Assembly: GCA_964036195.1 (NCBI GenBank)
Contig: OZ038453.1
Coordinates: 18,203,206-18,267,205, forward strand
Reading direction: 5' to 3'
DNA length: 64,000 nucleotides
Origin: Sphaerolaimus hirsutus
Lineage: Eukaryota > Nematoda > Chromadorea > Monhysterida > Sphaerolaimidae
Numbering within the stretch: position 1 is the stretch's first letter; each line of letters starts with the position of its first letter. A model generated the notes under the pieces. The model was not told the origin of the DNA. It saw only the letters and a list, made by a program, of their open reading frames with translations, and did not search any database. The translations under genes and the position numbers were made by a program. Positions 8,937 through 42,000 of this stretch are shown here, one piece after another.

Positions 8937-10082
8937 CAGGGTTGGCAAAATCTCAGAAAAAAATAAAAATAAAATAAAAATAAAATGGAATATTCAAGAA
9001 TAAAATAAAATAAAATAAAATGGAAAATTTAAGAATAAAAATAAAAATTGTATAAAAATTAGAATTTTTGTAAAAATTTTGTAAAATTGTATAAAAATTT
9101 GTATTTTTGTAAAATTGTATAAAAATTCATTTTTTTTGTAAAATTTTATCTCGTTGCTTGAGTTTCTACCTGTTTATTCATGGATATGGGAGCAGTCCCA
9201 AGTGTAAAGTGTCAAATGTCATGTAAAATGTCATGCAAAGTGTCAATTGTCATGACAAATGTAAGGTAAAGTGTAAATTGTCATGACATGTAAAAAATGA
9301 AGTATCAAATGTCAAGCAAATTGTGTCCAAATCTTATGTTTGATATCTAAATCTTATGTTTTGTATCCAAATTATGTTGTTGTTGAATCCAAATCTTATG
9401 TGAACATTTGGATACAAAAACATAAGATTTGGATACAATACATACTATGGATACAAAAACACAAGATTTGGATACACAATTTACACTTTGCGTGACATTT
9501 GACATGACACTTGACATTTTGCATGACAATTGACACTTTACTTTGTCCCCCCCCCCCAAGATTTGGATACAAAAGATAAGCTTTGGATAGAAAATTTACA
9601 CAGCAAAGTCATGACGATTGTCACTTTGCTTGACATTTGATAAGACACTTGACATTTTGTGTGACAATTAACACTTCACTTTACATTTGTCATGACAATT
9701 GACAAATTGCATCACATTTTATAAATGTGCCCAGCACACTCCACTAGTCCTTCTACTGAAAATGCAAACCATTCTTATCAATAATTGTAACTTTACACTT
9801 GCAGCTAGCTAACAATACATACTGCATGCAACTTTTGAAAAGTAAGGGAAAAATTTGTCACAGGTTTTTCATGTATAGGTCTAATTATAACATTTTTCTG
9901 GCCTTGCATGCATGATTCTGATTTTTTGTAAAATTTTTGTAAAATTTTTGTAAAATTTTTGTAAAATGTGTCATTTTATTTTATTAATGACTTATGGGAA
10001 TAAAATAAATTAAAATAAAATAAAATTTTTATACATTTTTTATACAATTTTACTAAAATGAATTTTTATAAAACCAACCCTG
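8937..10082. mobile_element. hAT-like element, CAGGGTTGG family, 1.1 kb copy
   Basis: The ends CAGGGTTGGCAAAATCTC and AAAACCAACCCTG are inverted and flanked by GTTATGAT on both sides (8929-8936, 10083-10090). Subterminal AATAAAATAAAA tracts are shared with the 264-bp copy at 63125-63388. The interior holds a degraded CWG-family-like block (about 9186-9720) rich in TGTCATGACA-type words. Confidence 0.85.
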
Positions 10083-16599: not shown

Positions 16600-16749
16600 G
16601 TGCCAGTCCCGCACCCTTGAAGTGAAAAGTCAAGCGACAAATGTAAATTGGCATACATATTTGTCTATTGTCAAAAGTTCAGTAATATTTTTTATACATT
16701 TTACATGACATTTGACACTTGACTTCACACTTTAAAGGGTGGCGGGGGG
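16600..16749. mobile_element. CWG-target TIR element outside coding sequence (introner family)
   Basis: A 150-bp element beginning GTGCCAGTCCCGCACCC and ending in the inverted GGGTGGCGGGGGG. It is flanked by CTG on both sides (16597-16599, 16750-16752). Its ends match those of ASM intron 10 and Wnt intron 2. It lies about 160 bp beyond the ASM stop codon. Confidence 0.75.
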
Positions 16750-16911: not shown

Positions 16912-16981
16912 TCACAAATCAGCGCAAAAGTCATTCTCAGCATTGGACCTTCCAGAGCGCATTTCGCACAGTAACTTTTTC
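16912..16981 (-). CDS. SMPD1: ASM last exon (cysteine-rich C-terminus)
   Basis: The acceptor TTGGACTTGCAG|G is followed by KKLLCEMRSGRSNAENDF and then CADL and TGA. The cysteine spacing and the acidic-to-leucine ending match the tail of acid sphingomyelinases. Confidence 0.75.
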
Positions 16982-19900
16982 CTGCAAGTCCAATTGCAGA
17001 ATGTAGAGTTGGGTTGACGTTTGTAGTGTCTGCGAGATTTTTGGGTAAGTGCTGTTTTGAAGGAAAATTGTTTTGTCTGTTTTTATTTGATTTTTTGGGT
17101 TTGAATTTTTGTGATATTTTTGTTGATTTTGTGGGGAAATGTCCATGGGAAAATTTCCAATTCTTCAGCATAAAAATCGATCGTACGGAATATGTTATTA
17201 ATTATCGAAAACTTTTTTATCGAATCTGGAATATTGAATACAATATGTGTGACATAGAGCATAAATGTAATTTAGAAAATTAATAGCAGTTTTGGCATGT
17301 ACATTCTCTGTACACGCAATTTTGGGGAGTATTTCGAGGGGGTGGGTAATTATTTCATAGTCGCCATTTTGAGGGGGGTATTTCGAGACGGGGGTATTTC
17401 GAGGGGGGGGGGGGTATTTCAAGGAAATACGGTATCAAAGTTTTGAACAATTGCTAAATCAAGATGGATACCATTGATTGAACGAAGTCTGTGTAAATAC
17501 CATATATTGACGAATAAAGTCTCATTACAAATCATGCACCAATTTCATGTGATAAAAATTCGTGTTGCCGTTTTTCTGGTAGCATATGGTAGATTTCATT
17601 GCAAAGTATGTGCATTCCAAGTTAACCCCCTCCAGGGGCTCGCGGGGGCAAAATATATACCCAGAGCCCCCCTCTTGGAGACCCCTGCAGTAAACTATTT
17701 CTAGCAGCGACAATTCATATAGTCCGCAGCAATTTTAAGCCAAATTCCCAAAAAAACTAAATCTTCTACTTTTCCCAACGCTACAGCGATATGATAAGGT
17801 GGTGCAGCGTGACTCACACACATTTTGCAACTTTTGCGCAAATGAATGAGCAACATCTAAAAAGCTGGGCTAAATTGTCATTTGCACACCTTTCTAGTTT
17901 CTCATATACCATATATAGGTATATTTTTACGCGCACAGAAGCCGCCTATCTGCTATTTTGCATTAGATGCGGCCCCCCGGATGCGGTGCGTGAATTACGC
18001 CGACTGCTCAGATTAGACTAGTGTTGGGAAAACCCGGCAGAACCGGGTATCGGGTCGGGTAAAGCGGAATGGAGCTGAAGTTTACTGACCGCATAATTTA
18101 CAATGAACTGTAGCGTGTGCGAGTCTCGAGCCCTGAAAAGTGTAAAGTCAAGTATCAAATGTCATGTAAAATGTCATAGAAACTTGTCAATTGTGCAAAT
18201 GCAAATCATGCAAAGTGACAGGCAAAGCGTAAGTTGTCAAGCAAAATTCAGCATAAACAGCTTCTTTTTGCTTTGATTGATATTTTACATGACATTTGAC
18301 ACTTGACTTAACACTTTACAGGGCTCGGGACTGGCTCAATGTGTCATCTGAATGAAAAAGTATTTTTCTTCATCACATTTCATTGCTGGGGACGCTTGGC
18401 GCCACTAATCTGGTGGGCTTTTAGGCATTTCTGCCACCATGCACGTGAAATCGGGTTAAATTTCTAGCATTAGATTAGACACAAACTTAACTTAACCAAA
18501 TTGAAAGACCAAATCTGCCTTATTTCGCAATTTCTATGACAAATTTCGCAAATCTGGATAAATGGAAATTACACAAGTTTTTGGCCCGCGGCTTTTCATA
18601 TTGGCTTTTCAATTTTGAATCCGCCCTGAAACAGGAAATGACTGCGTAGCGCGTAGAACCTCTTATACACATTTTTTGAACCTTTTTCTGTGTCAAATGA
18701 GAAAAAGAAATCAGAAATCGTAAATATTTTGTTTATTCCACCTGACAACGAAATCTACCGTATCCCGACTGATTAAATAGGCAAATTACTAACTCTTTCT
18801 TTTGGAATATGACACTGTTTCCACCATTGACGGGCAGTATATTGTGTAAAAATTCATCACACGAACCTATTCACGAAAATATGGTGTAAACATGCAGCGT
18901 AAAGCAGTGGTCCGCCCAGTTTACCCTACCGTAACTCACTGAATATATCTATCCATCAGCCACGGGGTATTGTGCATTCTGTCGATTAGTTGATCCCATC
19001 GTTTTGGTACGAGTGATTTCAGGCCATAGGCTGACTGTGGGGGAAAATGGAAATTTGTTTGAATAATTCAACAGAAACCATACACTGTGGAATGGAGATC
19101 CCAACTGCAAGTGTATTTCATGCATAAATATCCCGAAACGTAAATATGAAGAAAGCAAAAGTACCCGAAATCCTCGAATAAGACCCCAGGGGAGTTATTT
19201 TTTCGTCAGACGTTTTGGAGGCGGGAGTTATTCAAGGGGGGAGTTATTATTTCCTCAGGAAACTTGGACTTAATTCACTGTGTGGATGCAGTATGTTAAC
19301 TCGTGTAATTCAGGTATTTCACTGTCCAACAACAATAATACAATGTGTATACACTGCATACACATTATGTATCTACTGTCGCTGCCATAGGCTACTATTC
19401 TTTTGTAGTTATGTATCATATCCTTTTCATCAGAGGGAGGAGTTATCCAAGAGGGGGAGTTATTCAAGGGGGAGTTATTTTTTCCTCACCCCGCCAGCAG
19501 GGGGGGGGGCTAATTCAAGGGGGGAGTTATTCGAGGGGGTCTTATTCGAGGATTTGCGGTAATATGGAATCAAAGGTTCAAGCAATGCTGATATCCCTAA
19601 TTGAAACCAGGGGGGATTCCCAGACCCTGAAAAGTTTAAAGTAAAGTGTCACATGTCATGTAAAATGATCAAAAGTAAAAAATTGTTATTACTGACATTT
19701 GCATGACAATTGACACCTTGCACGACATTTTACACCTTACTTTACACTTTAGCGGGTCTGGGATTGGCGCCAGACTTATTTAATTATGTCCAAAAACTGA
19801 ATTTGCTTATATTTAAATGCGAGTATGATATAAAATATATATTTTACCTTTACAAACTTCGACAGAATTCTAAACAACTCTACACAACTGTGGAAACACA

Positions 19901-22900
19901 CCTTCGCTTTATATTCCAGCCTCCAAATGGGTTTATCCTGTCTGTTCGTTTCAGCCTCATCTAGCACGTGGGTTTCGTGGTCCAATACAGCCTGTATTTA
20001 AAATTGTAACTTGGGTAACTGTATTTGTAAAAAACAACAACAATGAATGTGACCAATTTGTTATCAAAACAGAGGAAAACAATTAAATAATTTTTAAGTA
20101 TCTTGTAAACATCAACAGAATTCTGGTAGCCACGCTTAGGTTATACAAAACAAATGAACGATATAAATATACCGTATTACATCCAATATAAGGTACCTAT
20201 ACCTCTAAAATAAGGTACCCTCTAATATAAGGTATACTAAAACGCTGACAAAAACTGACGAAATTAATATAAGCTATACCTTATATTAGAGGTAATACCG
20301 GATAAAGTAAATTTGACAATTTTGGAAACAATGTTTCAATTACGAATCAATGAAACCAAACCAAACTGTATAACGACAATTTAAAATGTAAATTTTCACG
20401 CTACCATTCATAAATATAAACCTGAAAAAAAAACAGCCTAGAATAGAGAACAGCGCAACCCCGTTCCCCAAACTTATCTGTCCAGAAGACTTTTAAACCC
20501 GTCACTTTTATGTTTCAAAAAAGCTCTGTATATTCCGCCAATCACACTGTCCGGAAGATATACGAACAAGTTGACATAAAAATGATTTATTTTTAGTGGG
20601 GAAGATTTCTATTTTCCCTAGAATGTGGTTGGTGATCTATGGTCTTAGTGTTAATCTGTTTTATCCCCTTTGCTGTATAACTCGGCGGACATGACGCTTA
20701 GTGTGGAAACCTACCAAAACCCATCCGAATAATGAACCGAACATCATACTGTTTGATATTTCGTTGTTGTTTTTTCTACAAAATAGTTGAATACGAAATG
20801 TTTTTTCTTTGTCTATATTATGTGGTGAGTAAAAAAAAATATTTATATTTACATATACTTTTGAAAAAAGTCCAGTAGGTAATTCTAACAACTCTGGATC
20901 ACTGTATGAATTAAATTAAAAATTCAATTAAAAATGATAATAATAATTAAAAAACTCAATTGAATAAACTTTTTCAACTATCATTGTTCCTTTTCTGTTC
21001 CCACTTTTAACCAAGACACCTTTGAACCCGTAACTTTTATGTTTCAGCAGTACATAAGATTTTGACTATTTTACTATTCAACATTGAATGTACTATTTTA
21101 CTATCCGACATTGGAATTACTATTCGACATTGCTTTGCAACCCGACAAACTGGGATGTTGCATCAATTAAAATGATGAACAAAATAACTTTTTGACCATC
21201 ATCTTTTTCAAAATGGAATAAGGATGACTTGTTCATTCTGTTTTATCTTTGCCAGAAATTTCCTTTGACGGTGCCGTGTCGTTATTTCATTTTCACCACA
21301 AATCAGAATTTGAAGCGTCGTATAGCTCGAACGCGATTAATGACTCAACTCAAATAAAAAAATCGGCTGTGACTTAAAGAATCGACATAAAATATCGCAA
21401 CCTGAGTTCATTTTCACTGACGCGACCAAAATTTAGGAAGCCATTAGTCAAACTGGAGTTTGAATACTGTATTACCTCGAATTATCCCTCCTTGAATTAA
21501 CCCCCCTCGAAATACCCCCAGTTCTGAGCGAGCTGTATTAATTGCGTATTAAATGTGAAGAGATAAGGTGTATTAATTATTTAGCTATGTATTTATGTAG
21601 GTATGTATTTCATCATTTGCATACAAGTCCGGTTCACACATGCAAATCGCATACTTATTGTTAACAAAAAAGCATGAACCCACCCAAAATCAAAAACATC
21701 ACCAAACCAACCCAAGTGCCCCCATCCCTTCCATCGATAGTATACACCCTATACGCAGGTACCACATTCACAAAGCTGGGGGCAGTCCCGAGCCCTGTAA
21801 AGTGTGAAGTGTCGTGCAAAGTGTCAATCGAAGCAAATAAATCCACTACTGAACTTTGCATGACAACTGGCATTTTGCCTGACAGTTTTCACGCGACAAT
21901 TGACAAATTTCTATGCTATTTGTCATGACATGACACTTGACACTTGACTTGACACTTAACAGGGCTCGGCAATGCCACCTGGTAACGCTGGGCGCTACAA
22001 ACTGCACGCCGAGGGGTCGCGAGCTATACGAATGATACCCATTTAGGGTGCTGTATTGGATCGAGAATGAATCGTAGTGTGTGTGGCCGAAAAATTGTCC
22101 TCGGATGGTCGATTCGAATCTGGGAAGGGGGGGTGCTATTCGAATCGGGGGAGGTCACATTTGGAGCCAATTCTGTTAGTGGTGATGCAAAATTTAGTGA
22201 TTTTGGGTGAAGGTTAGGGAAAAATCGCTTAAAGTTTGCTTCACTCAGATAGTAGATGTTGAGGGTTTTGGGGGCGGGGCTCAGGGGATAGTAAAGTAGC
22301 CTCGGGATAGATAGATAGCCCCCGCCTGAGCAGCCCCCGTCATAGGAACGAACGGGTCTACATGTCAAGCGGCTTACATGCCAAGCGGTTTACATGCCAA
22401 GCGGCTTACATGCCAAGCTGTTTACATGCCAAGGAAGCTTACAATTACAAATAGAAAATTACACTAAAAACTGTGTGTTCCACAACTCGCCCAAAATGTG
22501 GCCGTTTGAGTTGCAAACTTCAGAGTAGGTGTCCTATAGAGTCTACTCTATTGTGTTAAAATTTCACTGTGATAGCTCAACCGTAGCTCAAGCTATCGCG
22601 TTTTTCCAGCGGTAACTGAAGATGCCCACCCCTGTACTTAACCGCCTGGCCTGCGTGATACCAAGTCATGTAAACTTGTATTAGAAGTGAATAGGAATGA
22701 GTATTTATTATAATTGGTAGCACTTGACATTTGTAGCTTATACACTTTTTGTCACTTGACCAATTGAATTTGAATCGGCCCAAATTCACCATATAACTGA
22801 CCTCTGAACAATCCTGTAATAATTCCAGCTCCACGCATCCAAACATCCACTGTTCCCAGTTGGAATATGTCCAATTATGTGCACTTTTTCTCCGTGCCTC

Positions 22901-25900
22901 TCCGCATTGAGCAGTTCTCCGATCAGCCAAGATAATGTGTGATCGGGATCTGTGGCGTTAACGTACAGCCAGCTGGGAAGTTTTGAATTTTGGCATGTGA
23001 GAAAATTGTGGTGAATTGTCAAATTTTTGTGTGGAAAAGTATTGATGAAATAGTCAGCTGTACAAATATGACCATGAGCATTTTTTTTCCGGAAGAATTG
23101 TAAAAAAAATTATATGAAAAAATGGATATTTACCTTGCTGTTGAAAAATGGAAATTGAGACCAAAATGTTTTAGATTTCAATTATTTCAATCTCAGGTTC
23201 CAAAAAAACTTTTTGAATCTCCTTCAGAATAATCTTGCAAAACAATTTTATTAACAACGTGAATTTTCACATTTTTCACATATTTTCAACAAAAAAATAA
23301 AATAAAATAAAAGTGGACAACTAACAGATTAGTTTTGTAGCAATACTGTGTATTTATTGAGATTATCCTAAAGCCAGGCTTGACCAGCATGGAATAGCTG
23401 CCGCGTCTGAAACAGAATACCTTGTTTTATTGACAAAAATTCTTCTGCGCGCAAAATTCCGCAAATGGACAAAGTGATAAGTGATACTCAAGTAATTTTC
23501 TAAATGAGAAGAATTGTCGTTGAAAACATCACTTGTCACCTGTGGGCAGTTCCGAGCCCTGTAAAGTGTAAAGTACATTGTAAAATGTCATGTAAAATTT
23601 CAATCACAAAAAAAAAATTTACTTTGAACTATGAGCACCTGGACAAAGTACCATATATCCTCGAATAAGACCCCGGGGAGTTATTATTTAGTCAGAAGTT
23701 ATTGAGGGAAGTTATTCAAGGCTAAGTTAATTATTCGACGGGGCCATATTCGAGGATATACCGTAAAAACAAAAGAAAGCGACCTATTCACTCACTCCAA
23801 TACGCTTTTCTTAATCCACTCTGGGTCGCCGAGCCACTTTTTCCACTGCTTCCACAGAGCGCCGTACAGCCAGGAAGTTTTGAATTCTTCCGGAATGGGC
23901 GGAGTTAGATCGTTGGGCGGGAACTGGTCCACTGGTGGTGATTGGATGGTGGAATTTTTGTTCATTTTATAGGATCGAAATCAACTCCTGTGCAATGTCG
24001 TCTCCAAGCTTGAAAATCTTCCAAAAACTTGACATATTATAAATATTAAGAAACTGCATTCAAGCTAATTGAACTTGACATACTTGAACTTTTGGCTTAC
24101 TTTAATTATAAATACCGTATTACCTCGAATTATCCCCCCCTTGAATTAACCCCCCCCCCCTCGAATTAACCCCCCCTCAAAATGGGCTGGGGAAATAATA
24201 ACCCCCCCCCCTCGAATTACCCCCCCCCCCTCAAAATGGGCTGGGGAAATAATAACCCCCCCCCCCCTCGAAATACCCCCCCCCCTTCGGAATGATGTAC
24301 GTCATGTACATAATAAATATGTCATGTATGGAATGTACATGATGTATATTACTGCTAATTTGTATCGCAGCTACACATAGAGTAGTTTGTGTAGCTATCA
24401 ACGTTTTTATGTCCAAATATATCCTGTTTGGACACATTTATTACCTATTTTGGGTACGCAAATGCCTACTATTTACTACGATCCTTACGAAAATTTCTGA
24501 CGAAATAATAAAACCCCCCCTCGAATAACCCCCCCCCCCTTGAATTAACCCCCCCCATCAAATTTTGCTGGCGAAATAATTAACCCGCATGGGGGTATTT
24601 CGAGGTAATACGGTACAATATTTTCTCGAATAGTTTCTCTGGGGAAATAATTCAAGCGATAATAATTTTTTTGTCAAAAAAATTTCAAGCATGTTTCTAT
24701 ATTGACAAAACAACATGCCATTTTTGCCTTTTGTCTGGCATTTAAATTGCGAAGATAGATCGGGATTCCTGCAAAACTTTAACGCTGACCCACAGTGGGT
24801 CTTCCAAGGAGATATTATTCAAGCAGAGGCCTTTATTGAACAAATACGGTACAAAACCCCGCCAAATATTCACACAACCTGGTGCAGCCTCGTGATTGCC
24901 CACGGCGCTGTGAACGATCGTTTTCGGAAAATAATTCTGCCACAAGTCGGTCAAATTCGACAGCATATCCAGATTTCTAGAGCGGGAAACGTTCCAAACA
25001 TCGTGCGGCATTAGATCCCCGGTCCAGATTATGTAGTCAAACTGGGATAATTTTTTTTCAAAGAATTTACCTATGTTCCATTTTAAATACGTCATAGGTC
25101 ATTTGAAATACGGCCCCGTATCTAAATCTACGTAAATATTTACGTCGAATCACCCTGACTAATTTACTTTGCTTGCGGTTCTATTTCACGCTTTTATAGC
25201 CTACTTACCACGTAAATAAATACGCTACTATATAGCTGTGAAATACAGGCGAATATTTCAAAATACCGTATATCACCGAAAAAGTCCTCCCCCTCGAATA
25301 TTTCCCCTGTTAGCCCAGTGAGGAAAAAAGGACTCCTCCCCGGTCAAATACGTCTGACGAAAACACTGAGGCGTCTAATTCTAAAAGTCGACAAGTCCAC
25401 ACAATGCGATTTTGAGTAAATCGCAGTTTAAGTTTCAAACCCAATTCTAGGCCCGTGGTGCGTGTCAAATTTGGCTCTCTCATGCTTTCTATGAAGTTCC
25501 ATATGTTGACAATAAAGTGTAAATTTTTCATCCACTCATCTCAACCTATATGTGAAAAATGGGGTGTCCATAAAATTCCATTCGGTCAGAGCAAAACTGT
25601 TTTTGGGAGCGAAATCGACTTGCCGCCTGCACGCGAGAACATTTTTGTTCCAGCCTTATGGAAAATTTATGCACTTGTCGACTTTTAGAAATCGGTGCCC
25701 ATAGTGGACTTATCACATTTCTTGCGTTTTTCCCATAAAAAGGGATGCGGAGGATGGACTTGTCGACTTTTAGCCTAAAACTGAGTGGACTTCTGAGTGT
25801 CGACTTCTGCCCAAATTTTTTGCATTTTACCCAAAAATGTCAAATTTGGCACTATGCCATATTGGCATGTGAGGTCAAAAAATTTATAGAAAATTATGAA

Positions 25901-28900
25901 AAATGTGCGGAAGTAGCCCCAGATGACGTTTCCGGGCCTAACTCAAAATTTTCATATTTTGGACTTGTCGACTTTTAGAATTGGACGCCTCAATTACTTC
26001 CTGGGGACTTATTCGAGGTATATGGTAGGTAGACAAAAACTGGACCTTCTCGTGCTGCAGGTGCTTAAATAGCTCGCGCACGGTCCACATGGGAATGTCG
26101 CATTTACCCATCGAAATCCATTTTCCCGCTCCACCGCCTTTAAAAGAAATTTAAGTGTGGGTATAATAAAAAGTTGACGGAAAAATAGAACGGCGCTCTT
26201 CTATTAGAAGAAATACAATATCTAATCTAGCACCAAACCAATCCCCACGTGTCCAACCCAAACCACACAAAACCCCAAACCCCCCCCCCCCCCCACAACC
26301 CACCACCCCCATCACCCCTCCCAGTGGCCTCCCTCCTACAACACAAGGGCTGGTCGCAGTCCACGGGGGCACCCACGCTGTAGTAGGGGTCGAAGTGGAT
26401 GTCGGACAGGTGCAACACGCGCATATTGGATGGGGCTGTGTCCTGGGGGGGTGTATTTTGGGGTTTGGGGGTTGTTTGGGGGTGGGGGGGGGGGGGTTGT
26501 GGAATTGTCGATTGCCCAATTGTTGTTTTTTGTCGGCGGTTCGATTTTGGATTGTGTTTTTGAGGATTATTCATCAATGTTCTGCGTTTTTTGGATGTTT
26601 TCTTCGTGTACAGTGGCCCGATGTTATGCAAGAATATTCATATATCTAAATACCGTATTTCCTCGAAATACCCCCCCCCCCTCGAAATACCCCCGCAAAA
26701 TGGGCACTACGAATTTGTGGTCCGGGAAATGCATAATAGACGTTCAAAACACTTACTGCGTTACGTTAGAACATCGTTTATACCATCTACAACCTTCTAT
26801 AAGGCTGTAAAAACTTATAAATGGTGGTTATTGTTGCATTTTTCACGTTTTTCTCTCAAAATTTTCACTCTGAAAAAATAAACCCCCCGGGGGTAATTCG
26901 AGAAAATACGGTATGTCTATTTATTTCTCTACCGCATTTGCTTGAATTTCCCATAGGGAATTATTTCTCATCAGTCTTTTTTGAAGGGTCAACTATTCGA
27001 GGGGGAATGATTCACAAGGAGGAATTTTTTTTCGTCAAAGGTTTCAAGCATATTTCTGAAAACTCATTCCACAAAATATGATTTATAGATGCACTAACAT
27101 GTCAATTTTGAGCAAATTGGACATGAGGGGTATACAAAAGGGGAAATAGTTATTATTGGCACACTGCCAACTTGAACAACACACGCATCATGAAAAGCCA
27201 CAGGCGTAAATAACTAAAACAGAACAAACCGAAGGCAATTGGTCTTCATAATCGTCAACTTCCGGTTTATTGCCCGGTATTTTCAAAGTCCAGTTAGCAT
27301 TGAATGGATTGAAAACTGTGCCACAAGTTTCATTAGTGCCATTGTTGAATATGAAGCCGCAAATTTCATCCGGTTGGATTATAATACGTCCGGAAATGTA
27401 TACCACCATGTTCTGGGGTTGGGAGTGATTCTGTTATTTAAGTATTTGATGAATGTCTTACAGTAGGTAATGATGAATGTAAATATAATTGAGATGCTTA
27501 ATATATATGACCATACATAATACCAAGGTGTAAGCAAAAATTCGATGAAACTTCATCAGCATTTTCATTCGTGATTGAAAAGTGCCAAAACCTGCCTTTC
27601 TATTGGAAGAAATACAGTGACAGAATTATGGGATCTACCTAATATTTATACCGAGAAACATCCAACAACGCAAAATGCATAAGCACCGAAACGGCAAACC
27701 ACACACTAGTTGACACCCGTGTCAACTGGTCTGTGTCAACTCAGATTTCGGCTTCACGTGTCGGCCAGCGATCCCCAAATCCAATGCGTTTGCCGTAATA
27801 TTTATAAATCAACATTGTCGCAAGTGCCTCTGGAGATCGCTCTGCGACACGTGAAGCCGAAATCTCAGTTGACACAGAACAGTTGACACTAGGGTTGGCC
27901 GATGTTTTTTTTAAACGTTTTTTATTTAAAAAAAAACGTTTTTTTTAAAAAAAAACATGACGTCCGAAATGTTTTTTTTTTATTTAAAAAAACATCGACC
28001 GAAATTTTTAGTACTAAGCACTAGGTATTTTGCAAAATTTTTGCGCGCAAGCGCGCAATTTCACACACAAATTGACATTGGTGGTTGTTTTCATTGGTTT
28101 TGTGGCATTTTTAGTATCAAAGTATCCATTTATATATGCTACCATGGGTTAATAAGCAGTCATATGTCAGTGTAGTATATAATATTGAGGTAATGTGCTT
28201 CCATGTACCTCCACAGTGTGTAACTTCACTCCCACAGTAACAACCTCCTTTTATAACCTTGTTTCATCACTATTCCGTGCCAAACTTTACCTAAAGTCAC
28301 GAACATTCGACTATAAGGCGATATACAAACAATATGTTGACGAAAAATTGATATTTTTGACACAAATCACCACTTATAATGCTATCCCATGGCTCCACAG
28401 ACATTATATGGTCATATATAACATCACAGAGTATTGCCACTGTCTGATATACCTATATATGTTGACACAAGGTCATATCTGGGAGCTTTTAAAAAAAAAC
28501 GTTTTTTTTTTAAAAACATCGAGTTAAAAAAAACGTTTTTTTTCCAACCATAGTTGACACACGTGTCAACGAGTGTGTAAGTCGTTATCAATCAGCCACC
28601 CTTTATCTCAAAATACCAGAGTTGTTAAAATACCGGTATTTTCGGAAAGCGTAAGCGTAAGCGTAAATACACTTTCCAAATTTTGAGTATGGATACTGTA
28701 AGCGTAAGGTATTTTTCAAATACCTAGGAAAGCGTAAAAAAAGCGTAGGTAAGCGTAATTTTTTTGAGAATGCGCTTTTGCTATTGAGCATCGGAAAATA
28801 CCCTTGCTTTCACATTTAGATTGCTTTCAATGAATCACAGATTCTGTCCATTTTTGTTGAGTGAATACTTTCCCAAGCAAACTCTCAGCGACATTTTTCC

Positions 28901-30234
28901 CACTTGGTAGTCTGCCCTTTGATGCAGATAACAATTTATCGACTGCGACACTCAATTCGCCCTCATCTTGTAACTCGGGGTTGATGCTGTGACGGCGACA
29001 ACATCGTTGTCGGAATCCATTTGCACCCCCAAAATTCGTAATCTGAAGCCACGATATTGAAAGGCCATACAATTTTAACCAAACATTTCTATTTCGACAC
29101 AAATTGTAGATGTGCTGCTATTTTCTGTATGTTACTGCACACACGCGGTCATTTTTTTGTGGTACGCGTTGTCTTTCATTTTCGTTTTTGTAGTTTTACG
29201 TTTTTCAAAAGCGTAAGACTGGACCGTGGGAAATTTTTTTACGCTTTTGGTATCCGGGTAATTTGGCCGGGAAAGCGTAATAATACGTACGGGTATTTTG
29301 TGAAAGCGTAAGCGTAAGCGTAAGTATAAATACCCATTTACCCGGGTATTTCGGGTAAGCGTAAATACGCTTTCGCAACTCTGCAAAATACCCCCCCCCC
29401 CACCCGGAATTGTCTGCCAATTCCCTGGCAAACGTGTGGCAATCCAATATCCGTGAATGAACACAACTCATCGAATAAAGTCTCCACGAAAACGATGGTG
29501 CCCCGTTTCGCCCAGACATCGTGTAGAGAGTGCACGAGTACCTGTAAATACGTTGGGTTGTTTGAGTATTGGGTTGTGATGGAAAGGCACCGGTGCCCCG
29601 GTGCTGGGCACCAGCACCGGTGCTGGTGCGGTGCCATTTTTCGGGGGTGCCCTGCCGGTGCCGGTGCCATTTTTTCCAGTATAGCACCGGTGCCGGTGCG
29701 GTGCCATTTTTCCCGGTGCCTTTTCCATCACTAGTATTGGGTATGCAGGAGCTAATTGAAGAGCCTGCAATGTGTGTAAAACAGCCACGTACAATGCCCT
29801 GCAGAATGGCAGACGTACGTTATTTATTTTATATTACTCTTGACATTTTACAAGGTATGGGACATGGACAGTTCATAGACTGCCCCGGCTCAAAATTTTC
29901 GGAAATGGATTCAACAGCGTAATGGCGCTTGGCGCTGAAGTCATGGCGCTTTTTCCATCACTAATCCAGATCACTAGACCGTCAAAGATTTTTTGGTCGA
30001 AAAACCATAAAATTAAACTAAGATTCTGAGGTAGCAATATGAAGTCGAATTCACCTGGCAAACGTAGCAAAAACCTCCATTTTCATTCGCAGACCGCAAC
30101 AAATCCTCTCTGCTAACGCTCGCGTAGAATTCATCAAAATATGGCGATTCTCTAGCCGGAAAAGAATAAATTGCCGTCGGAAGTATCACCAGGATTAGAA
30201 GAAAAATTCGTGCCTTTTGTGAATTTTTATGCAT
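16912..30234 (-). CDS. SMPD1: Acid sphingomyelinase (sphingomyelin phosphodiesterase), 15 exons
   Basis: Hydrolyses sphingomyelin to ceramide and phosphocholine in lysosomes or outside the cell. Exons: 30234-30055, 29541-29404, 27430-27230, 26442-26316, 26137-26046, 25041-24879, 23931-23796, 23406-23326, 22972-22802, 22119-21979, 21775-21712, 19991-19902, 19034-18940, 17864-17802 (doubtful 3' end) and 16981-16912. The protein is about 603 residues, close to human SMPD1. It has a signal peptide, then a saposin-B domain with all six cysteines over exons 1-3. A calcineurin-like phosphoesterase domain follows, with the metal-ligand motifs LSDIHFD, WTGDLMPHDVW, AVGNHE, HIIGHIPTG and FFGHTHYD. The C-terminal cysteine-rich tail ends LLCEMRSGRSNAENDFCADL. 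All joins keep phase except the exon 14 donor, which is not GT. Intron 10 is exactly a TIR element. Confidence 0.93.
17802..17864 (-). CDS. SMPD1: ASM putative exon 14, no canonical donor
   Basis: After acceptor TTTAGCCCAG the frame set by exon 13 reads HFLDVAHSFAQKLQ and then NVCESRC. Joined to exon 15 after CESRC plus one residue, it gives C-x3-C-x5-C. That is the spacing of the conserved ASM tail. The bases after the needed boundary are CACCTT, not GT. Nearby GT donors (T|GTGAGT inside the CESRC codons, or AGC|GTTGGG) give the wrong phase or extra residues. Either a non-canonical splice site is used or this exon is misplaced. Confidence 0.5.
18111..18340. mobile_element. Diverged CWG-family TIR element in ASM intron 13
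   Basis: CTCGAGCCCTGAAAAGTG at the left and CACTTTACAGGGCTCGGGAC at the right are inverted. Between them are TGTCATGTAAAATGTCA-type words typical of this family. The edges have drifted and no clear duplication is visible. Confidence 0.55.
19170..19562. mobile_element. Repeat with CCTCGAATAAGACCCC ends in ASM intron 12
   Basis: The left end is ATCCTCGAATAAGACCCC and the right GGGGTCTTATTCGAGGAT, in inverted orientation. It is related in style to the TATTTCGAGG MITEs but has AGTTATTC-type internal words. Other copies are at about 23650-23765 and 33965-34030, with a similar one at 25265-26020. Confidence 0.6.
19611..19770. mobile_element. CWG-target TIR element in ASM intron 12
   Basis: A 160-bp element with ends GGGGGATTCCCAGACCCTG and CAGGGTCTGGGATTGGCGC, inverted, flanked by CAG (19608-19610, 19771-19773). 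It is the same family as ASM intron 10 but lies inside a larger intron rather than forming one. Confidence 0.78.
21712..22119 (-). CDS. SMPD1: ASM exons 10 and 11 around the element-derived intron
   Basis: Exon 10 (22119-21979) carries the metal-binding GQFFGHTHYDSF and ends VAPSVT plus AG. Exon 11 (21775-21712) starts with C, giving AGC across the join, and continues FVNVVPAYRVYTIDG. The family pattern APS-x-T-x-x-x-x-x-x-PGYRVYQIDG continues across the junction without gain or loss. So the 203 nt between them were added to an uninterrupted coding segment. Confidence 0.9.
21776..21978 (-). mobile_element. TIR element that is exactly ASM intron 10 (introner-like)
   Basis: In gene orientation the intron starts GTGGCATTGCCGAGCCCTG and ends CAGGGCTCGGGACTGCCCCCAG (its last bases at 21776). 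These ends are inverted copies. The exon bases CAG before the intron and the CAG that ends it form a 3-bp duplication. The element's first GT acts as donor and the duplicated CAG as acceptor. It is 203 nt long, and the interior has the family words TGTCATG and AAAGTGTCAA. Confidence 0.9.
22372..22434. repeat. 16-bp tandem repeat, about 4 units, in ASM intron 9
   Basis: The unit TTACATGCCAAGCGGC/T is repeated with small changes. A similar tandem with a 17-bp unit (TGACTGGCGGGTCTACA) lies at 34640-34708 inside FMO intron 7. Both units combine TACATG with GCGG. Confidence 0.7.
24115..24613. mobile_element. TA-flanked MITE in ASM intron 6
   Basis: CCGTATTACCTCGAATTATC and its inverted end CGAGGTAATACGG are flanked by TA. 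The interior has long C runs and CTCGAATTAACCCC repeats. Confidence 0.72.
25368..25991. mobile_element. Foldback element with GAGGCGTC ends in ASM intron 5
   Basis: GAGGCGTCTAATTCTAAAAG followed by TCGACAAGTCCA at the left, and TGGACTTGTCGACTTTTAG followed by AATTGGACGCCTC at the right, are inverted. The left 200 bp is repeated at bases 25-215 of the window. It sits inside a CCTCGAATA-type repeat (about 25265-26020). Confidence 0.7.
26653..26911. mobile_element. TA-flanked MITE in ASM intron 3
   Basis: CCGTATTTCCTCGAAATACC faces GAGAAAATACGG, flanked by TA. It lies between ASM exons 3 and 4 and has no coding role. Confidence 0.7.
27890..28552. mobile_element. 663-bp hAT-like element, TAGGGTTGG family, copy 1
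   Basis: The ends TAGGGTTGGCCGATG and CGTTTTTTTTCCAACCATA are flanked by GTTGACAC on both sides (27882-27889, 28553-28560). It lies in ASM intron 2. The copy at 60354-61015 is nearly the same length and in the opposite orientation. A 110-codon frame here is broken in the other copy, so I do not call it coding. Confidence 0.88.
28617..29383. mobile_element. hAT-like element, CAGAGTTG family, next to ASM exon 2
   Basis: CAGAGTTGTTAAAATACC and TTTCGCAACTCTG are inverted and flanked by CAAAATAC (28609-28616, 29384-29391). Subterminal GCGTAAGCGTAAGCG arrays vary the AACGTAAACG arrays of sister copies. Its edge is only about 20 nt from the ASM exon 2 donor. Confidence 0.85.
29574..29733. mobile_element. 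GGCACCGG-filled hAT-like MITE in ASM intron 1
   Basis: 160 bp with ends TTGTGATGGAAAGGCACC and GGTGCCTTTTCCATCACTA, flanked by GTATTGGG (29566-29573, 29734-29741). The interior is almost entirely GGTGCCGGTGC-type repeats. It shares its ends with the GGCGCC elements but has a different filler. Confidence 0.85.
30055..30234 (-). CDS. SMPD1: ASM exon 1 (signal peptide and start of saposin B)
   Basis: The ATG at 30234 opens MHKNSQKARIFLLILVILPT, a signal peptide. The exon ends GGFCYVCQ, which holds the first two saposin cysteines. The donor is CAG|GTGAAT, phase 0, and it joins VLVHSLHDVW in exon 2 (acceptor TATTTACAG). Confidence 0.9.
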
Positions 30235-33027: not shown

Positions 33028-36000
33028 TCAATCCAAGTGCCTAAATTCATTCTCATTCACCAATTCAAAAACGTCACTCTTATAATTCACCAAATCCATT
33101 TTCCGTTTCTGATGCACAGTTTCATAAAGTTTCTCGACCACCGGAGGGGCGGGTTGAAAATCGGCCATTTTTCCAAGTCGCTGAACGTAATCCCATTGCA
33201 GATGGCTTAGTAAATGGAGGCGGGATGAGCCCTCTGTAGTTTGGGGCATTTTGGAGGTTAGGGCAACTTAGGTGGTGTCTTGTGAAATGAGTGTTGATTT
33301 TGAGTGGATTTACTGCAGTGTGATGGAAAATCGCTAGAAATATGATTCCAGGTGCAAGCAGGGACGTATCCAGGATTTTTGAGCGGGGGGGGCTGTTTGT
33401 TTACGGAGCCCGGCGAACGGGGCGGGGCTCAGCCCCCCCCCCCAAATTTTACCTGTACAGTGGCGGAATGGTGCCATGGCGCTGGCGCCATTCGTAGACG
33501 CCACGCCATGGCGCCATTGGCGTTGGCGCTGGCGCCATGAGCTGCTGATATGTATGTAAATATACATACATATGGAGAGATGGGCACGGAATTCAACGTA
33601 TTTTACAGATATTTGAGGGTACAGGTGCCGATTTTCCAATAATCCCGTGGACGGTGGAAAAATGCGCGCTCACGCGCAAAATTTTTACATAGCACCTTGG
33701 AAATTAGTACCGAAAACGGCATTTTCCTCGATTTTTTCCGGTCTCACCCGGGAACGGGGGGGGGGGCTGCAGCCCCCCGCCCCCCCCCCCCCCTGGATAC
33801 GTCCTTGGGTGCAAGGTCAAATTGCGCCACTAGATTCGTAAAGTGCCAATTTTGCAGCCTGCCGTCGCAAAAAAAGAATTTCTTGGGTAATTAAGAACAA
33901 TGTTGTGGTGATAACTGAGAAATTTAAGTGAAAATCAGTTATAAGTGATGTTTTTGTCGCATATATCCTCGAATAAGGGGAGTTATTATTTGTCAGACTT
34001 TTGGGGAGTTATTCGAGGACTTATTTGAAGATATACGGTACTAGTTATATACACAAAATAAGAACCTGACGGCTGGTGATCTCACCACCATCGAACTTGC
34101 ACGTGCAAGATGTCTGAGCGTGCATAAGTAATTATCCAGGAAACTCACTGAAGTTATTCTCCTTGATTTCCTCATCTTGCTTCCTGGATGCGTGCATGAT
34201 CTCTTTGCTGGGAACTGCCATTGTGCCAGTCAAAAGTGCACATGCAAATCGAACCTGGGGCCAGTTTCACACCTCATCAAGTGATAGCTGAAGTGAGTTT
34301 GACAGCGATCACTGTAGTCATGTAAACCCGCTAGTCATGAAGACTCACCAGTCATGTGTTTTAGAGGGGATTATGACTCCACGGAAGTTAGCGTCAGCAG
34401 ATCAGTGTGGGCCGCAGTCGATGTGCACTCACAGTGTTTTTGTCGCTGGTTTGATGATACCGTCCCAAGAAAAATTTAAAAAACTCAAATTAGTTGTTAC
34501 ATTTTTTCCTATTTTTCTTTGAATAGTATCATTAGAACAGTGACAAATACGATGTGAGTGCTCACGCACTGCGGCCCGCGTTATGCGCTCGACTAATCAT
34601 GTAAACCATCAATGCCATGATAATCACCCAAAGAACATGACTGGCGGGTCTACATGACTGGCGGGTCTACATGACTGGCGGGTTTACATGACTAGTAGGC
34701 CTACATCGTAATTGTGTCATTCCATTCAAAATTTCCTCCCATCCCACTGGCTATAATTCGTATCCCTTATCTCCTTACTTATCACTTGACAAGATATGTA
34801 ATTGGCACCTGCGCATCGAACAGCGGGAACGGGCAGATCTTTTCACATAAGCCGATGAAAAACAACTCCTTGGGATAGTCGATGTGGGCCATGTGCATGA
34901 ATAAGGGCTTGACACTGTGTGGGGTTACTTCGATGCCTAACTCCCCCAGGGACGTGATTTAATTAGCCCGAGATATTGGTTTTCGGGCAGCCCGATTGAT
35001 TGCAATGGAAATTTCACTCGATACATGGGATATTTTTCAGTTAAGCATTTTTTTGCAAACGGATTCGATCAGCTATACCCGGCGGACCGCAAAGTATGCG
35101 CCCAAAATTACTGTGTCTTAGTCGATAAGGCGCCAGCGGTATGTTATGTGTGCACTTTTACCAAAAGAAAAAAATATATTTCAGAAAAAGGCGGAATCAA
35201 GTACAACCGTGTATGTTTGGTGCCTGAAATTGTTTTTCTTCTTTATACCAATACGCATTTTTGATGACTCCATGGAGTATTTCATTCTGAAAAATACATG
35301 CGGCCCGTTGAGTGCACCTAAAGTAAATTTCAGTTAAATTAAACCGGGCCACCCGAAACACCGCTAAAAACGGGCTAATCAAATCCGATCCCTGGTCCAA
35401 GAAAGGGAAAGTGTAATTGTATCCAGTGCAATAGACCACCGCGTCCAAACTCAAATGCTGCCCATCATTGGTGATCACCCCGTCCTCTGTGAACTTTGCG
35501 AAGCCGCGTCGCTGCAGCACGTTGGGCGGAAGCGAGCCAGTCAAGGGGGCGTCGTTGGAGCATAGGTACACCTGCGGGGGGGGGGCTGCATGTACCTAGG
35601 GCTGGGGCCAATAACGCTAGATGGTGCCAGTTCCGCAAATTGAGAAGTACGAAGTAAAATGGCAAATGCGAAGTGAAATGGCAGAAGCGAAGTGAATTGA
35701 GAAGTAAAATGGCAAATTTATTGTTATTTTTTGCCTTTTTACTTTTGCAAATTTATTGCCATTTCACTTCACTTTTAATTTGCCATTTTACTTCGCTTTT
35801 GCATTATACTTCCCACTTCTCAATTTGCGGAACTGGCACCAGATGTCAATCCTAGTGCCCTGTAAAAGAGCCTGTAAAATGATAAAAGAACCTGTAAAAT
35901 GTCATGTGTCATGTAAAAGACCTTGTGAAATGTCAAATTCCCTGCAAAATGCTATAAGTCATGTAAAGGACTCTGGAGATGGGACCCTGGAGTGAGGATT

Positions 36001-39000
36001 ACTCAAGACCACATTCAAAACATTTTCCCCACAAAAACGATCAAACACACCGTCCTATCGCTACAATCATTGGCCAACTCGATCGAAATATCAGTACCAG
36101 AGGGGCCGGCACCCAAACAGGCGATTTTTTGGCACTGTGCCAGGTCACTTGGCCGCCGGTAATTGTGACTGTGAAGTACGACGCCTTTGAAGCTGGCCGC
36201 GTTTTCGATTGTTGGCATTAATGGCTCGGAGTAATGCCTGCGGTGAGGGGGTTTCCAATAATTCAACGTTATTGCTACTCTCACAAGACGCACTCACACG
36301 GAAAAAAATTGGGGGGGGGGGTTGCGGAGGTTCGATATATAGGCTTTTTTGGTGTAGAAGGAAGAAAAATCGCTAAAAGTATGTGTAAAAAGGCTCAAAA
36401 GAGGCATACAGTGATGGAAAAGCGCCAGAAAAAATGGCGCCAGGCGCCAAGCGCGCCATGGCGCCATTCGGAAAGTGGGCGCCAAGCGCCAAGGGCGCCA
36501 CAGAAAAAGGGCGCCAGGCGCCAAGGGCGCCATGGCGCCATTCGGAAAGTGGGCGCCAGGCGCCAGGGGCGCCACGGAAAGAGGGCGCCAAGCGCCAAGG
36601 GCGCCATGGCGCCATTTGGAAAATAGGGCGCCAGGCGCCAAGGGCGCCAGGATAAAAAAGTGCCTACAACACCATGCGTGTGCTAAAAATGTTTATACAG
36701 CACCATTGTACGCGCATTCACTTCTTAATTCGCGTTCTCCAGGATGTAATGAACAAAAACAAGGCTAGCAACAAATTTTTTTTGAATAAAATCCACATGA
36801 CGAATTCAAACGCAGTGGAAATTGTCATTTGACAACAATCCATTCATTACAAATAGACCTTTCCAAACAATGTTTCCTATTTGCAACGATTTAAATCCGT
36901 TTATTTATGATTTTGCAAGTTAGACGGTCCCTCATTCTTGTCTTCTGATCCGTCAGACAGATCTGATGAACCGTTGGACGAATGATTTCCACCCACTCAC
37001 ACCACTCCGTCCATTTTTCTGGCGAATTTAGATCATCCACGGATGCGTTTTTCATTTTTTTTTCGTTTACACAGCACTCACTGTGAAACCCTGCTGGCGC
37101 CTTTTTGGCGCCCTTCTAAAGCAGGGCGCCAGGCGCCAAGGGCGCCACGGAAAAAGAGCGCCAAGCGCCAAGGGCGCCATGGCGCCTTTCAGAATGTGGG
37201 CGCCAGGCGCCAAGGGCGCCACAGAAAAAGGGCGCCAAGCGCCAATGGCGCCATGGCGCGGCGCCCTTTGGCGCCCTCAAATGGCGCCAGCGCCATGGCG
37301 CCATTCCATCACTAGAGGCATATGAGAACATATAAACTGGTGGACAATTTAAATGGAAAATTGACAACATAAATTTTTGAAATATTCTCATGTGCAAATG
37401 ATCAGCCCAATCTAGCTAAAATTTTGTGTGAATGTGGGGCCAACATTTCTTTACATTGTCCCCAAATGGCACCCCCCAGCACCCCCCTGGTTAGCCGTGA
37501 CAGCCTTCTATATATTTTTTCCGATTTTTTTCTGGCCAATATAATTGGAAAATTTTGGAATCCCACACAGAATATTGCTGCGGGAAAGCGCGCTGCCATT
37601 TTTGGCATGCTGCCAACACAAGCATTGGATACGCTTGTGCTGGCAGTTTTTTGATGGAAAAAAAATCACTAATGGCTCGCTCAGAGATGCACATAGGTTG
37701 CAGGGTGATTTTTACCCCCTGCTGTCCCCACACTGCTGCTGCCTCACAAAAATCCATCCTAAATTGCAGATATCAGCCACTTCATGACATTCAAACATAT
37801 TAAGAACTTTATAAGTGCAAACATTTTGATTATGATTGCAAAAACCACAAATTTACACTTTCTGGGCATGACCTCTTCATCTGTCTGGCCCATTTAAACA
37901 AAATACAGGACACATTTCCAGTTGTCCCCTGGTATATGTTTAACAGATAATTGTTGCCTGAATTCAATGGGCACTAGCATTTAATGATTTGCATGCAGAT
38001 GCTGCAGAGGCCGGTCACGCTTTTCCGGAAATGCTGTCTTTGAACAGTGGTATTTCCACTGATCGCCATAAATGCAATCTTCGTGCAACAATGTGGTGCA
38101 GGACCAGCCACATGTTGCTCATGACACTTAGGAAGCCAGTCCTGGCCACCATGTGCTGTATGATAAGCCTGGAGCTGCATAAGACACATTAGTTCCAATC
38201 AGGGGTCTCCTAGGGGGGGGCTGGGGGGGGCTGCCCCCCCCCCCCAAATCGGCCAGCTATCTATCTATCCCGGAGGCCGCTCAGCTATCTATCTATCCCG
38301 AGGCAAAATTTTTGGCTACTACCCCCAAAGACCCCCCCCAAATCGCTCAGCTATCTATCTATCTGGAGTGGTTTTTGAGAAATTTTGCCCCAATTTTCGC
38401 TCAAAATCACCAATTTTCGCACCTTTTTATAGTTTTTCACCTTCAAAATCGTGCTTTCCGGCTATATACATGGTTATATACCTATTTTTAGCCATTTTAT
38501 ACCTACTTTTGGCTACTTTTAACTGATTCTTAGCGATTTTTTCCCCTTTCTGCCTTCTTACCCTTGAAAAAGCCTATATATTGTGCCCCCGCCAGCCCCC
38601 CCCCCCAGAAAATTTTTTCAGCTATCTATCCCTCCGGAGGAGCGATTTACTATCTATCCAGCCCCCGCGAGGGCCAAAATCCTGGAGACCCCTGGTTCCA
38701 ATATATGTTTTGTTCAAAAAAATATTTCAGGTTTGATCTTCAGCAAAATTTTGGTGTAGGGATTGCGTCAGTTGTGAGGGGGTGGAATAGTTGCAGGAAG
38801 TTACCATCTCATATGTCCCAAAAAATCAGTGGCCAAAACCATCCCCAACCCATTTTATAAATAAATCAAATTCTGGCCTGAACAAAAATTTGTATGGATT
38901 TTCCATTTATATTTACCAGAAAAAAAGTGTAAAAAAAAATATTTTCAGCAACAAGGGTGGCCTGAGGGGGTGCCACTTTGGTTATATATAGTATATACTT

Positions 39001-42000
39001 TGGGGCACCCTCACACTAAGGCGCTCCACACGGTGGTTGACGCTACTTTTTAGAAGTCGATTGAGTCAACTCAGAGTCAACTGTTTTAAGTATAACTATT
39101 TTTAATTTTTTACCTGTGTTGATTAACAAATATTGAGAAGTCGATTGATGTAGAATGAAAGAAGGGGATTTTTTGGATACATATTGTAAATGGCTCAGAG
39201 TCAATTGAATTTTTGACCAGTTGACTCTGAGTTGACGCTAATTTTGGCGTCAACTAGCGTGTGTGGGACCTAAGTGACAGCCTGATGGCTTGCTTGTGTG
39301 ATTTTTAAAATGTTATTTTGTGAATTTTCCATTTATATTGTCCACCAGTTTAGTACTAAAAATAGCTGAAAGTAGACGATAAAAAACATGAACTAGTGAT
39401 TTTGGAGGTGAAACTCTATAAAACGTTATAAAAGATAACGAAAATTGGGGTATAGCTTCGCAAAAATCGCCCCAGATAGGTAGATAGCTGGCCGATTGGG
39501 GGGGGGTGGAGGTTAGGGGATAGTAGCACAAAATTTTGCCTCCGGGATAGATAGATAGCTGAGAGCCCTCCGTCCGGGATAGATAAATAGATTGATAGCT
39601 GGGCGATTTTGGAGGGGGGGGGGGTAACCCCCCCCTATCCTACCCATGTACTTCTCACTATCAATGTTAGCATCTAGGACTGTGTATACTAGGCATACCG
39701 CAAAGTAAATATGTGCAGACAGAATCCTACCATGTCGCCAAGCAGTGTATAATTATTGTATGCTATATTTATGTGTTCTAGTTTTCAAATTTTCAAACGT
39801 AAACGTTCATCAATTTAAATTCAAGCTTAAATCATTCAACCGAGTTCATCAATCAATTCAACTTAAATCATTCAACCGAGTTGATCATTTGAATAAAATT
39901 TCAGTTTTCATCAAATAATAAATACACTGTACTCATAAAAAAGGGTTTTTCGAAAACTGGGTTACTTTAGATGCAGTGGGGGTTGAAAATTTATCAGATT
40001 GTTGGCACTATACATAAAATTGTCCATATGCGAAGTGATAAAAAGTTGCAAAACGCCTCTTCCCACATCGGTCACGGTGAAAGTCACGGTGAAAACTTGT
40101 GTGCGTAGGCACAGTGAGTATTTTTCAACAATAATGGCTAAGAATCAAAACTCAGAATAAACAAACCCATTGCAAACGAAAACTGCGTCAAATCTGTTCT
40201 CGGCGCGCGGGGAATCGGGATGAATTTCACGGGAACGCACCGCCCACTTTCCGCTAGAGTTCCGTCTGACCGACTCCACACGTGTGTTGAACTGTATTAT
40301 GTAAATAATAAATACATGTTTTATAGTCATCTATGACACACTTTACGGTGGAGTAGATTATCTACCTTCAGAATAAAGTGCAAAAACTTCTTCACAGTAA
40401 AATAGCAGAGTTGTTAAAAATACTAAACTTTTTTCAAAGTATACGTAAACGTAAAGTATTTATTTTTACTCACCCCGAGTACAGAAAACGTAAAGTAAAT
40501 TTTTTCTACTTTTACTCATGAGTAAACGTGAGTAAACGTAACGTACTTCTCCCCCAGAAAACGTAAACGTGAGTACTTTTGAGAAATGTCGCCAAAAGTT
40601 TCGCTCACAATCACCCATTTTCGTAACTTTTTGCCTTTTAAAGCAATTTTTGGCTGTATATTATCTTATATATTCATTTTCGTCCAGTTTCCCCATTTTT
40701 AGCATATTTTCTCCCTTTTTCCCTTCTTCTCACCTTTTTTCCCTTCTACGCCTACATAAAAACCTAAAAAACCTACACAAAAACAAGTTTTCTGTATTCG
40801 AGTACTTCAAAAAAGTATACGTAAATGTGAGTACAGTATCTTTTTTCGGAGGAAACGTAAACGTATCTACTCTGTACTCGAGTATACGTATTTATCGAGT
40901 AAAAGTTAATACGTTTCAACAACTATGCACAGTACTCTACAATGCTTTCACTACCGGATTTTTTTTGCATAATTCATAAGGTCACTTTATGCACCAGAAC
41001 ATGGGAACATTGTCTGTTTACGTTTCCACAAAATTTAGCGCCAAAACCACATCAAAAGTTCCAGGGGTAAAATAATAGGAATCACATTTCCGATGCGAAC
41101 AACAAAGCGCCTATTTGTAGAAAATTGTCACCTGAATGAACTTTCCCAGCTTGAATGCAGCCGCATAAGATTCCAAATACCGGTGCACATCTCTATGGCT
41201 GACGAAAGATTCTTTCGGTCCATCGAATGGAAAATCGGGGAATCCCATGATTTCTTTGGGCAAATTGGTTCTGGAAAATGGAAAGTAAACGACAGAATAA
41301 TTTGGGCGCAAAATGTACCATATCGTTTCCTCGAAATGAGCCCAGGCTTGAGCGAGCTTATGAAAAAATAACCCCATCGAAATACACCCCACCGCCGGTT
41401 AACCCCCTCAAATTTTGCCCTCTGAAAAATAAACCTCCTGGGGCCAGATTTAATTCTCCCTACAGATTTGTAGGGTAGGGCGTACACCCGATAGATTTTT
41501 TAAAGTTCAGCCGCATCGACGCACATGCACCGAGAGCAAGGCGGTTTGTAAAATATACGAAACCATCCCTTAAGGTCGCCGATATTGCAATATGACGTAT
41601 ATCGCTTCGATTTTGTCCCGGAAATCATGATTTCGTCATTTCTTGGCCGTCTGCCAATTCGCTTTTTATTTTATTTTGTCGGGCGGGTTACTCGCATAAG
41701 TCGCGCTTTTGTACGCTCGCGCATGCATTTCTTTCATGGTTTCGGTTGCAGACAGTGAACACTAAAAAAGTGACCACCTGACCACACAAAAGCGCGACTT
41801 ATGCGAGTAACCCGCCCAACAAAATAAAATAAAAAACGAGTTGGCCGACGGCCAAGAAATGACGAAATCATGATTTCCGTGCCAAAATCGAAGCGATATA
41901 CGTCATATTGCAATATCGGCGACCTTAAGGGATGGTTTCGTGTATTTTACAAACCGCCTTGCTCTCGGTGCATGTGCGTCGATGCGGCTGAACTTTAAAA

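Follow-up and report, generated by a model that had tools for sequence, protein, structure and literature searches.

Gozashti et al. 2022 found introners in 175 of 3,325 genomes, and in the accessible part of that survey only two animal groups carry them among animals and land plants (PMC9860276). Some introner families are described there as bringing the 5' splice site and obtaining the 3' site through duplication of the target (PMC9860276). Intron formation by mobile DNA is known in certain algae and fungi and in few animals. We analysed one stretch of 64,000 nucleotides (the window, to which all coordinates refer) and consider it highly probable, from its sequence, that two modelled introns reflect introner-like intron creation, in which inverted-repeat elements inserted at CAG in coding sequence. 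The two are intron 10 of an acid sphingomyelinase gene (ASM10) and intron 7 of a flavin-containing monooxygenase gene (FMO7).

The locus resembles the Chrysochromulina introners in its GT supplied by the element, AG supplied by a direct repeat, restored frame and copies outside genes. The Chrysochromulina duplications are 4 bp long and, in the accessible text, come without evidence of terminal inverted repeats (TIRs), whereas here the repeat is the 3-bp CAG, the TIRs are clear and the host is an animal (PMC9860276). A further difference is that only one intron of the ASM family is known here. The introner elements of the dinoflagellate Amoebophrya likewise have inverted repeats at both intron ends, with hairpins joining the exon ends, and 3-5-nt direct repeats over the borders, comparable to the direct repeats at this locus; their splice sites are mostly non-canonical in the portion of that report available, while those found here are canonical GT-AG (PMC7789003). 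Among nematodes, 168 new Caenorhabditis introns are similar as gains with short direct repeats (an excess of 3-5 bp), but according to the available part of the study their source sequence was not found (PMC9169325), whereas here elements related to the intron can be seen. An introner-like intron suggested in a bdelloid rotifer desaturase is, as here, a single proposed animal case; it is based on splice motifs and was compared with RNA-propagated fungal elements, and inverted repeats are not described in the accessible sections (PMC10597677). The mechanism considered here is of a known kind, and what appears to be new is the probable host phylum, nematodes. The Micromonas and Aureococcus introners of Huff et al. 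2016 reportedly share TIRs, direct repeats and canonical splicing with the present introns, and are said to differ in their algal hosts and longer duplication (8 bp). No introners in nematodes were met in the literature searched, which left out most subscription papers and the species tables of the survey, so that their absence is unproven.

The exon/intron borders of ASM were set by eye from reading frame and homology, the least secure of them being where exon 3 ends. All 13 introns of this gene model could be placed as GT-AG. Residues 55-584 of the predicted protein match the solved mouse and human ASM in the PDB (E 3e-113 and 5.5e-113), and the protein contains the Pfam domains Metallophos and ASMase_C. 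The intron keeps number 10, given to it in the first-pass annotation, in the 14-exon model. Its donor is ACCAG/GTGGCATT at 21978 and its acceptor TGCCCCCAG/CTTTG at 21776 (the slash marks the border); it starts with GTGGCATTGCC and finishes with GGGACTGCCCCCAG. The acceptor CCCAG also occurs in ASM introns 5, 8 and 9. Left unspliced, ASM10 would carry the reading frame into a stop inside the element; with the intron removed, the frame runs, as had been proposed, seamlessly through VAPSVTS/FVNVVPAYR, and it meets no internal stop in the 592-aa model.

Table 1. Genes, introns and element copies in the window
Feature	Coordinates	Strand	Description
ASM (acid sphingomyelinase) gene	16912..30234	minus	14 coding exons encoding 592 aa; no stop within the frame
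ASM10 (ASM intron 10; element copy D)	21776..21978	minus	203 nt, phase 2
Parts of ASM10	element 21978-21779, second CAG 21778-21776	minus	from gene model and inverted ends
First CAG	21979..21981	minus	last bases of ASM exon 10
Copy A	1020..1215	plus	CAG, element 1023-1212 starting GG, CAG; near palindrome, nearly complete
Copy B	18117..18337	plus	nearly complete, in ASM intron 13, without matching flanks
Copy C	19608..19773	plus	CAG, element 19611-19770 starting GG, CAG; in ASM intron 12, nearly complete
Copy E	23543..23590	plus	single end, in ASM intron 7
Copy F	61226..61268	plus	single end, outside both gene models
Copy G	16600..16740	plus	one clear and one poor end, downstream of ASM stop codon
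Rearranged family relative	9187..9721		repeated internal motifs
FMO (flavin-containing monooxygenase) gene	34144..42801	minus	adjoins ASM; model of 8 exons lacking the 3' end; Pfam FMO-like, E 1e-44
FMO7 (FMO intron 7)	34255..34808	minus	554 nt; element 34808-34258, second CAG 34257-34255
FMO intron 1	42298..42735	minus	inverted repeat of 19 nt, perfect, located 27-29 nt in from each end

An introner is expected to coincide end to end with a repeated element, as ASM10 does. The first-pass annotation had described it as exactly one TIR element, and with one CAG added the coordinates are exact. When D was compared with exon flanks of 60 nt included, 20 of the 21 matches outside it were confined to the intron, and the other entered the exon by 5 nt (ACCAG). 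The CAG noted on both sides is seen in the sequence, the first staying in exon 10 and the second forming the acceptor. The ends had been called inverted copies of each other. They do match in inverted orientation at 37 of 46 positions, the match starting 2 nt in from the donor and 5 nt in from the acceptor (a symmetric 2 nt on each side when the final CAG is set aside), but they are not identical, the arms being about 80% alike. Such terminal inverted repeats are one of the marks of non-autonomous TIR DNA transposons (MITEs).

Relatives of the element occur outside coding sequence in the window, as was first noted: copies A, B, C, E, F and G and the rearranged relative. The ASM gene and the sequence immediately behind it hold five of the eight family members (B, C, D, E and G). 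Matches elsewhere in the window cover 201 of the 203 nt of ASM10, and short end stretches of D are up to 93% identical to relatives over 42 columns. The further suggestion that the family looks mobile goes too far, since the best full-length relative of D, copy B, is only 69% identical over 212 columns and the two arms of D agree at 80%; copy A, a palindrome at 91% over 199 columns, looks fresher. The copies therefore differ in age, and present mobility of the family is not supported by these comparisons.

FMO7 is, in our gene model, a second intron composed of one inverted-repeat element plus CAG, which the first reading had overlooked. Borders in the FMO model are uncertain in places (exon 1 and exon 6/7), and the FMO7 border was set after a scan for termini had pointed there; independent support comes from the protein alignment, in which the junction FPLFDAQ/VRFACALL is gap-free in both displayed alignments with solved FMOs (best E 2e-63). 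The intron coincides end to end with the element in the layout CAG/GTGCCAATTAC ... GAAACTGGCCC CAG/, or, with its exon flanks, GATGCGCAG/GTGCCAATTAC...GAAACTGGCCCCAG/GTTCGA. The inverted ends match at 21 of 27 positions, at offsets equal to those of ASM10. The interior is largely self-complementary and unrelated to D, and no further copy of it was found in the window, save one 39-nt match. Because FMO7 has the same plan as ASM10, it strengthens the reading of ASM10 as one whole TIR element.

Twenty introns were modelled (13 in ASM and 7 in FMO), and their termini were compared by an anchored test, an ungapped inverted-end score fixed at both intron ends. ASM10 scored 22 and FMO7 15, and the other 18 introns at most 4; a score of at least 15 was found in none of 380 mismatched donor-acceptor pairs. 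Among 100,000 random stretches of the window (150-600 nt), seven reached 15 and four reached 22, and real elements may be among them. The end-pairing energy was less sharp, being matched by 2 of 380 mismatched pairs for ASM10 and by 4 of 380 for FMO7; that of ASM10 was reached by 0.1% of 2000 random stretches. An unanchored local score was matched by no mismatched pair for ASM10 and by one of 380 for FMO7. With another scoring and longer ends, none of the 380 pairs reached ASM10 and 10 reached FMO7, so that what distinguishes FMO7 is where the match lies. The end similarity of ASM intron 8 and FMO intron 6 is weak, has unequal offsets and was equalled by 10 of 380 cross pairs each, and was taken as chance.

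FMO intron 1, with CTG on the exon side and CAG as acceptor, may be a third, more worn case. Its end score is equalled by one of 380 cross pairs and it fails the anchored test. Away from the borders of FMO intron 5 lies a TIR element (35624-35839) with ends GTGCCAGTTCC on both sides, and its flanks suggest an ATCT repeat.

A blind scan of both strands for CAG/G[TG]...CAG, 120-700 nt long, which sees elements starting with GT or GG and is blind to other starts, gave inverted ends (score at least 10) in 5 of 1563 stretches. Two of these start with GT, and they are exactly ASM10 and FMO7. The three GG-starting results are copy A (1023-1215), copy C (19611-19773) and an unrelated element (1827-1677); none coincides with a modelled intron border, C being located inside ASM intron 12 and the other two outside both gene models. 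The unrelated element is on the minus strand (1677-1827), is flanked by CAG and starts with GGCGACGCGTC. A wider scan, which took in GT...AG stretches 80-900 nt long bearing any direct repeat of 2-9 bp, covered 39,246 arrangements and gave five matches: ASM10, FMO7, both strands of a long palindrome (41569-41929) and a weak one in FMO intron 4.

One alternative is that the elements landed in pre-existing introns, the old sequence being later lost and the element ends becoming splice sites. Family copies B, C and E do sit in older ASM introns, but in two independent cases residual intron sequence is found on neither side, and exact loss on both sides would have been required twice; we regard this history as unlikely. 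It is still less probable that the insertions merely broke an allele and stay unspliced. Unspliced ASM10 would bring a stop within the element, yet the remaining ASM exons keep an open frame and are conserved, the elements of both genes are in GT-AG register, and the arms of D diverged by about 20% while ASM stayed open.

Insertion at CAG with subsequent splicing would proceed as follows. A short non-autonomous inverted-repeat DNA transposon would insert into a CAG within ASM coding sequence, a transposase acting on the element ends and the inserted copy duplicating the 3-bp target. The sense strand would then read CAG/GT-element-C/CAG, in which the upstream CAG and the terminal GT of the element could serve as donor and the duplicated target, the downstream CAG, as acceptor. 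Splicing out the element with one CAG would restore the ASM frame. FMO7 could have taken the same route, starting from an element whose outermost bases are similar and whose interior differs. The coincidence of element and intron extent, the open frames, the CAG on both sides and the related copies elsewhere are seen; from them we infer insertion as the cause, the CAG as its target duplication, and splicing. The first-pass annotation had proposed this introner mechanism (GT from the element, AG from the duplicated CAG, frame restored) for ASM10; it fits the sequence, and FMO7 appears to repeat the plan. That the frame stays intact after splicing, as introners require, is a prediction from the gene models and protein alignments. 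A point against this reading is that a single ASM-family intron is among the 20 modelled in the window, fewer than the threshold of at least four similar introns per family in one genome given in the accessible text of the survey (PMC9860276).

CAG is directly repeated at A, C, D and FMO7 and not at B; for A, C and D a 4-bp CCAG repeat would fit as well. The copies are so few that a CAG target duplication is indistinguishable from a fixed CAG target, an ambiguity that Gozashti et al. also report in the part of the survey available (PMC9860276). Fifteen termini were tabulated, including those of FMO7 and of the element in FMO intron 5 and excluding the poor end of G; CAG or CTG stands before 11 of them, and 8 start with GT. 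Taken alone, the terminal 11-mer is weakly specific, with 27 matches where 20 Markov sequences average 12.8 (range 5-20). If the intron had instead arrived through reverse splicing of a copy from another gene (intron transposition), the exact intron borders would be explained, but the TIRs, the direct CAG repeats and the family copies that are not introns would all be unexpected, which leaves such an origin very improbable. hAT-like ends were set aside, the 8-bp duplication not being seen by eye, as were other transposon superfamilies, considered by duplication length. Rfam at the gathering threshold and ARAGORN gave no matches. Exact TIR patterns had no match in viral_contigs, where a looser pattern found eight stretches, taken as chance, and the TIR pattern had none in genome_contigs (bacteria and archaea).

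D contains an upstream AG (CACTTTACAG) 19 nt before the true acceptor, and its use would shift the frame. In the predicted hairpin of ASM10 this upstream AG is buried (unpaired probability 0.00) and the A of the true acceptor is open (0.92). The predicted fold of FMO7 also buries the nearest upstream AG, but keeps the true acceptor largely paired (unpaired probability 0.07-0.22), while another AG, located 33 nt upstream, is open. Concealment of the wrong acceptor by the hairpin would describe ASM10 and not FMO7, and no general hairpin rule is claimed. The folds are relevant to the idea that the intron ends gained complementarity in place, for example to join the splice sites, and are not transposon ends. 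The ASM10 hairpin, which joins the ends and buries the competing AG, would agree with it; the same-family sequence elsewhere in the window, which covers nearly all of ASM10, and the mostly paired true acceptor of FMO7 speak against it, and we give it very little credence in comparison with an insertion origin.

The ASM10 junction was compared in 219 of 239 fetched homologues, those with an alignment spanning it by 8 residues on each side. It is gap-free in 211 and gapped in 8, and the latter include P0122, the closest row in the ASM tree, which has three extra residues at the junction. No close relative turned up in the protein collection; among the matches listed, those covering at least 90% of ASM reach 47-48% at best. 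In a tree of 43 proteins (the full window protein and 42 hand-picked from the 239 homologues), the window ASM groups with the four named nematodes included (Trichinella, Romanomermis, Plectus and Acrobeloides) and three metagenome rows (support 100/99). This nematode-containing clade is set apart from the 35 other rows, and the branch of the window ASM is long (1.08). An earlier tree of 76 rows, with a partial window protein and 75 homologues kept out of 120, placed the window protein with both named nematodes included in it (support 100/99). The host is therefore probably a nematode; a tunicate host, which the repeats had suggested ahead of the trees, was set aside. The ASM10 site would fall near residue 489 of human ASM. 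Human ASM intron 5 is preceded by 493-495 residues according to the available part of the source (PMC3338701). It seems to lie some codons downstream of the ASM10 site.

On balance, we favour the view that two or more families of inverted-repeat elements with a CAG target gave rise to introns in a nematode genome, though with less assurance than the insertion origin of the two introns. If so, one animal group would be added to the two of the survey, and new nematode introns would get a visible source. Should the genome have many such introns, intron birth by transposition would become countable, datable and testable by RNA in an animal. Insertion at CAG gives CAG/G...CAG, so that copies starting with GT are splice-ready on the strand with the target CAG. 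The CAG-target model predicts that GT-starting copies with CAG on the sense strand are spliced and others are not.

Several other repeats were observed in the window. Two long minus-strand ORFs (807 and 861 aa) flank a third of 436 aa in a stretch (48323-54582) that resembles an LTR retrotransposon by eye; one piece of it, tried as a marker of the host, had no relatives at E 0.001. Long palindromes lie at 12296-13299 (arms of 332 nt, 93% complementary) and 41441-42057 (272 nt, 97%). A dispersed repeat of the type TACCGTATTACCTCGAATTA with runs of C is present at 24120-24610 and elsewhere.
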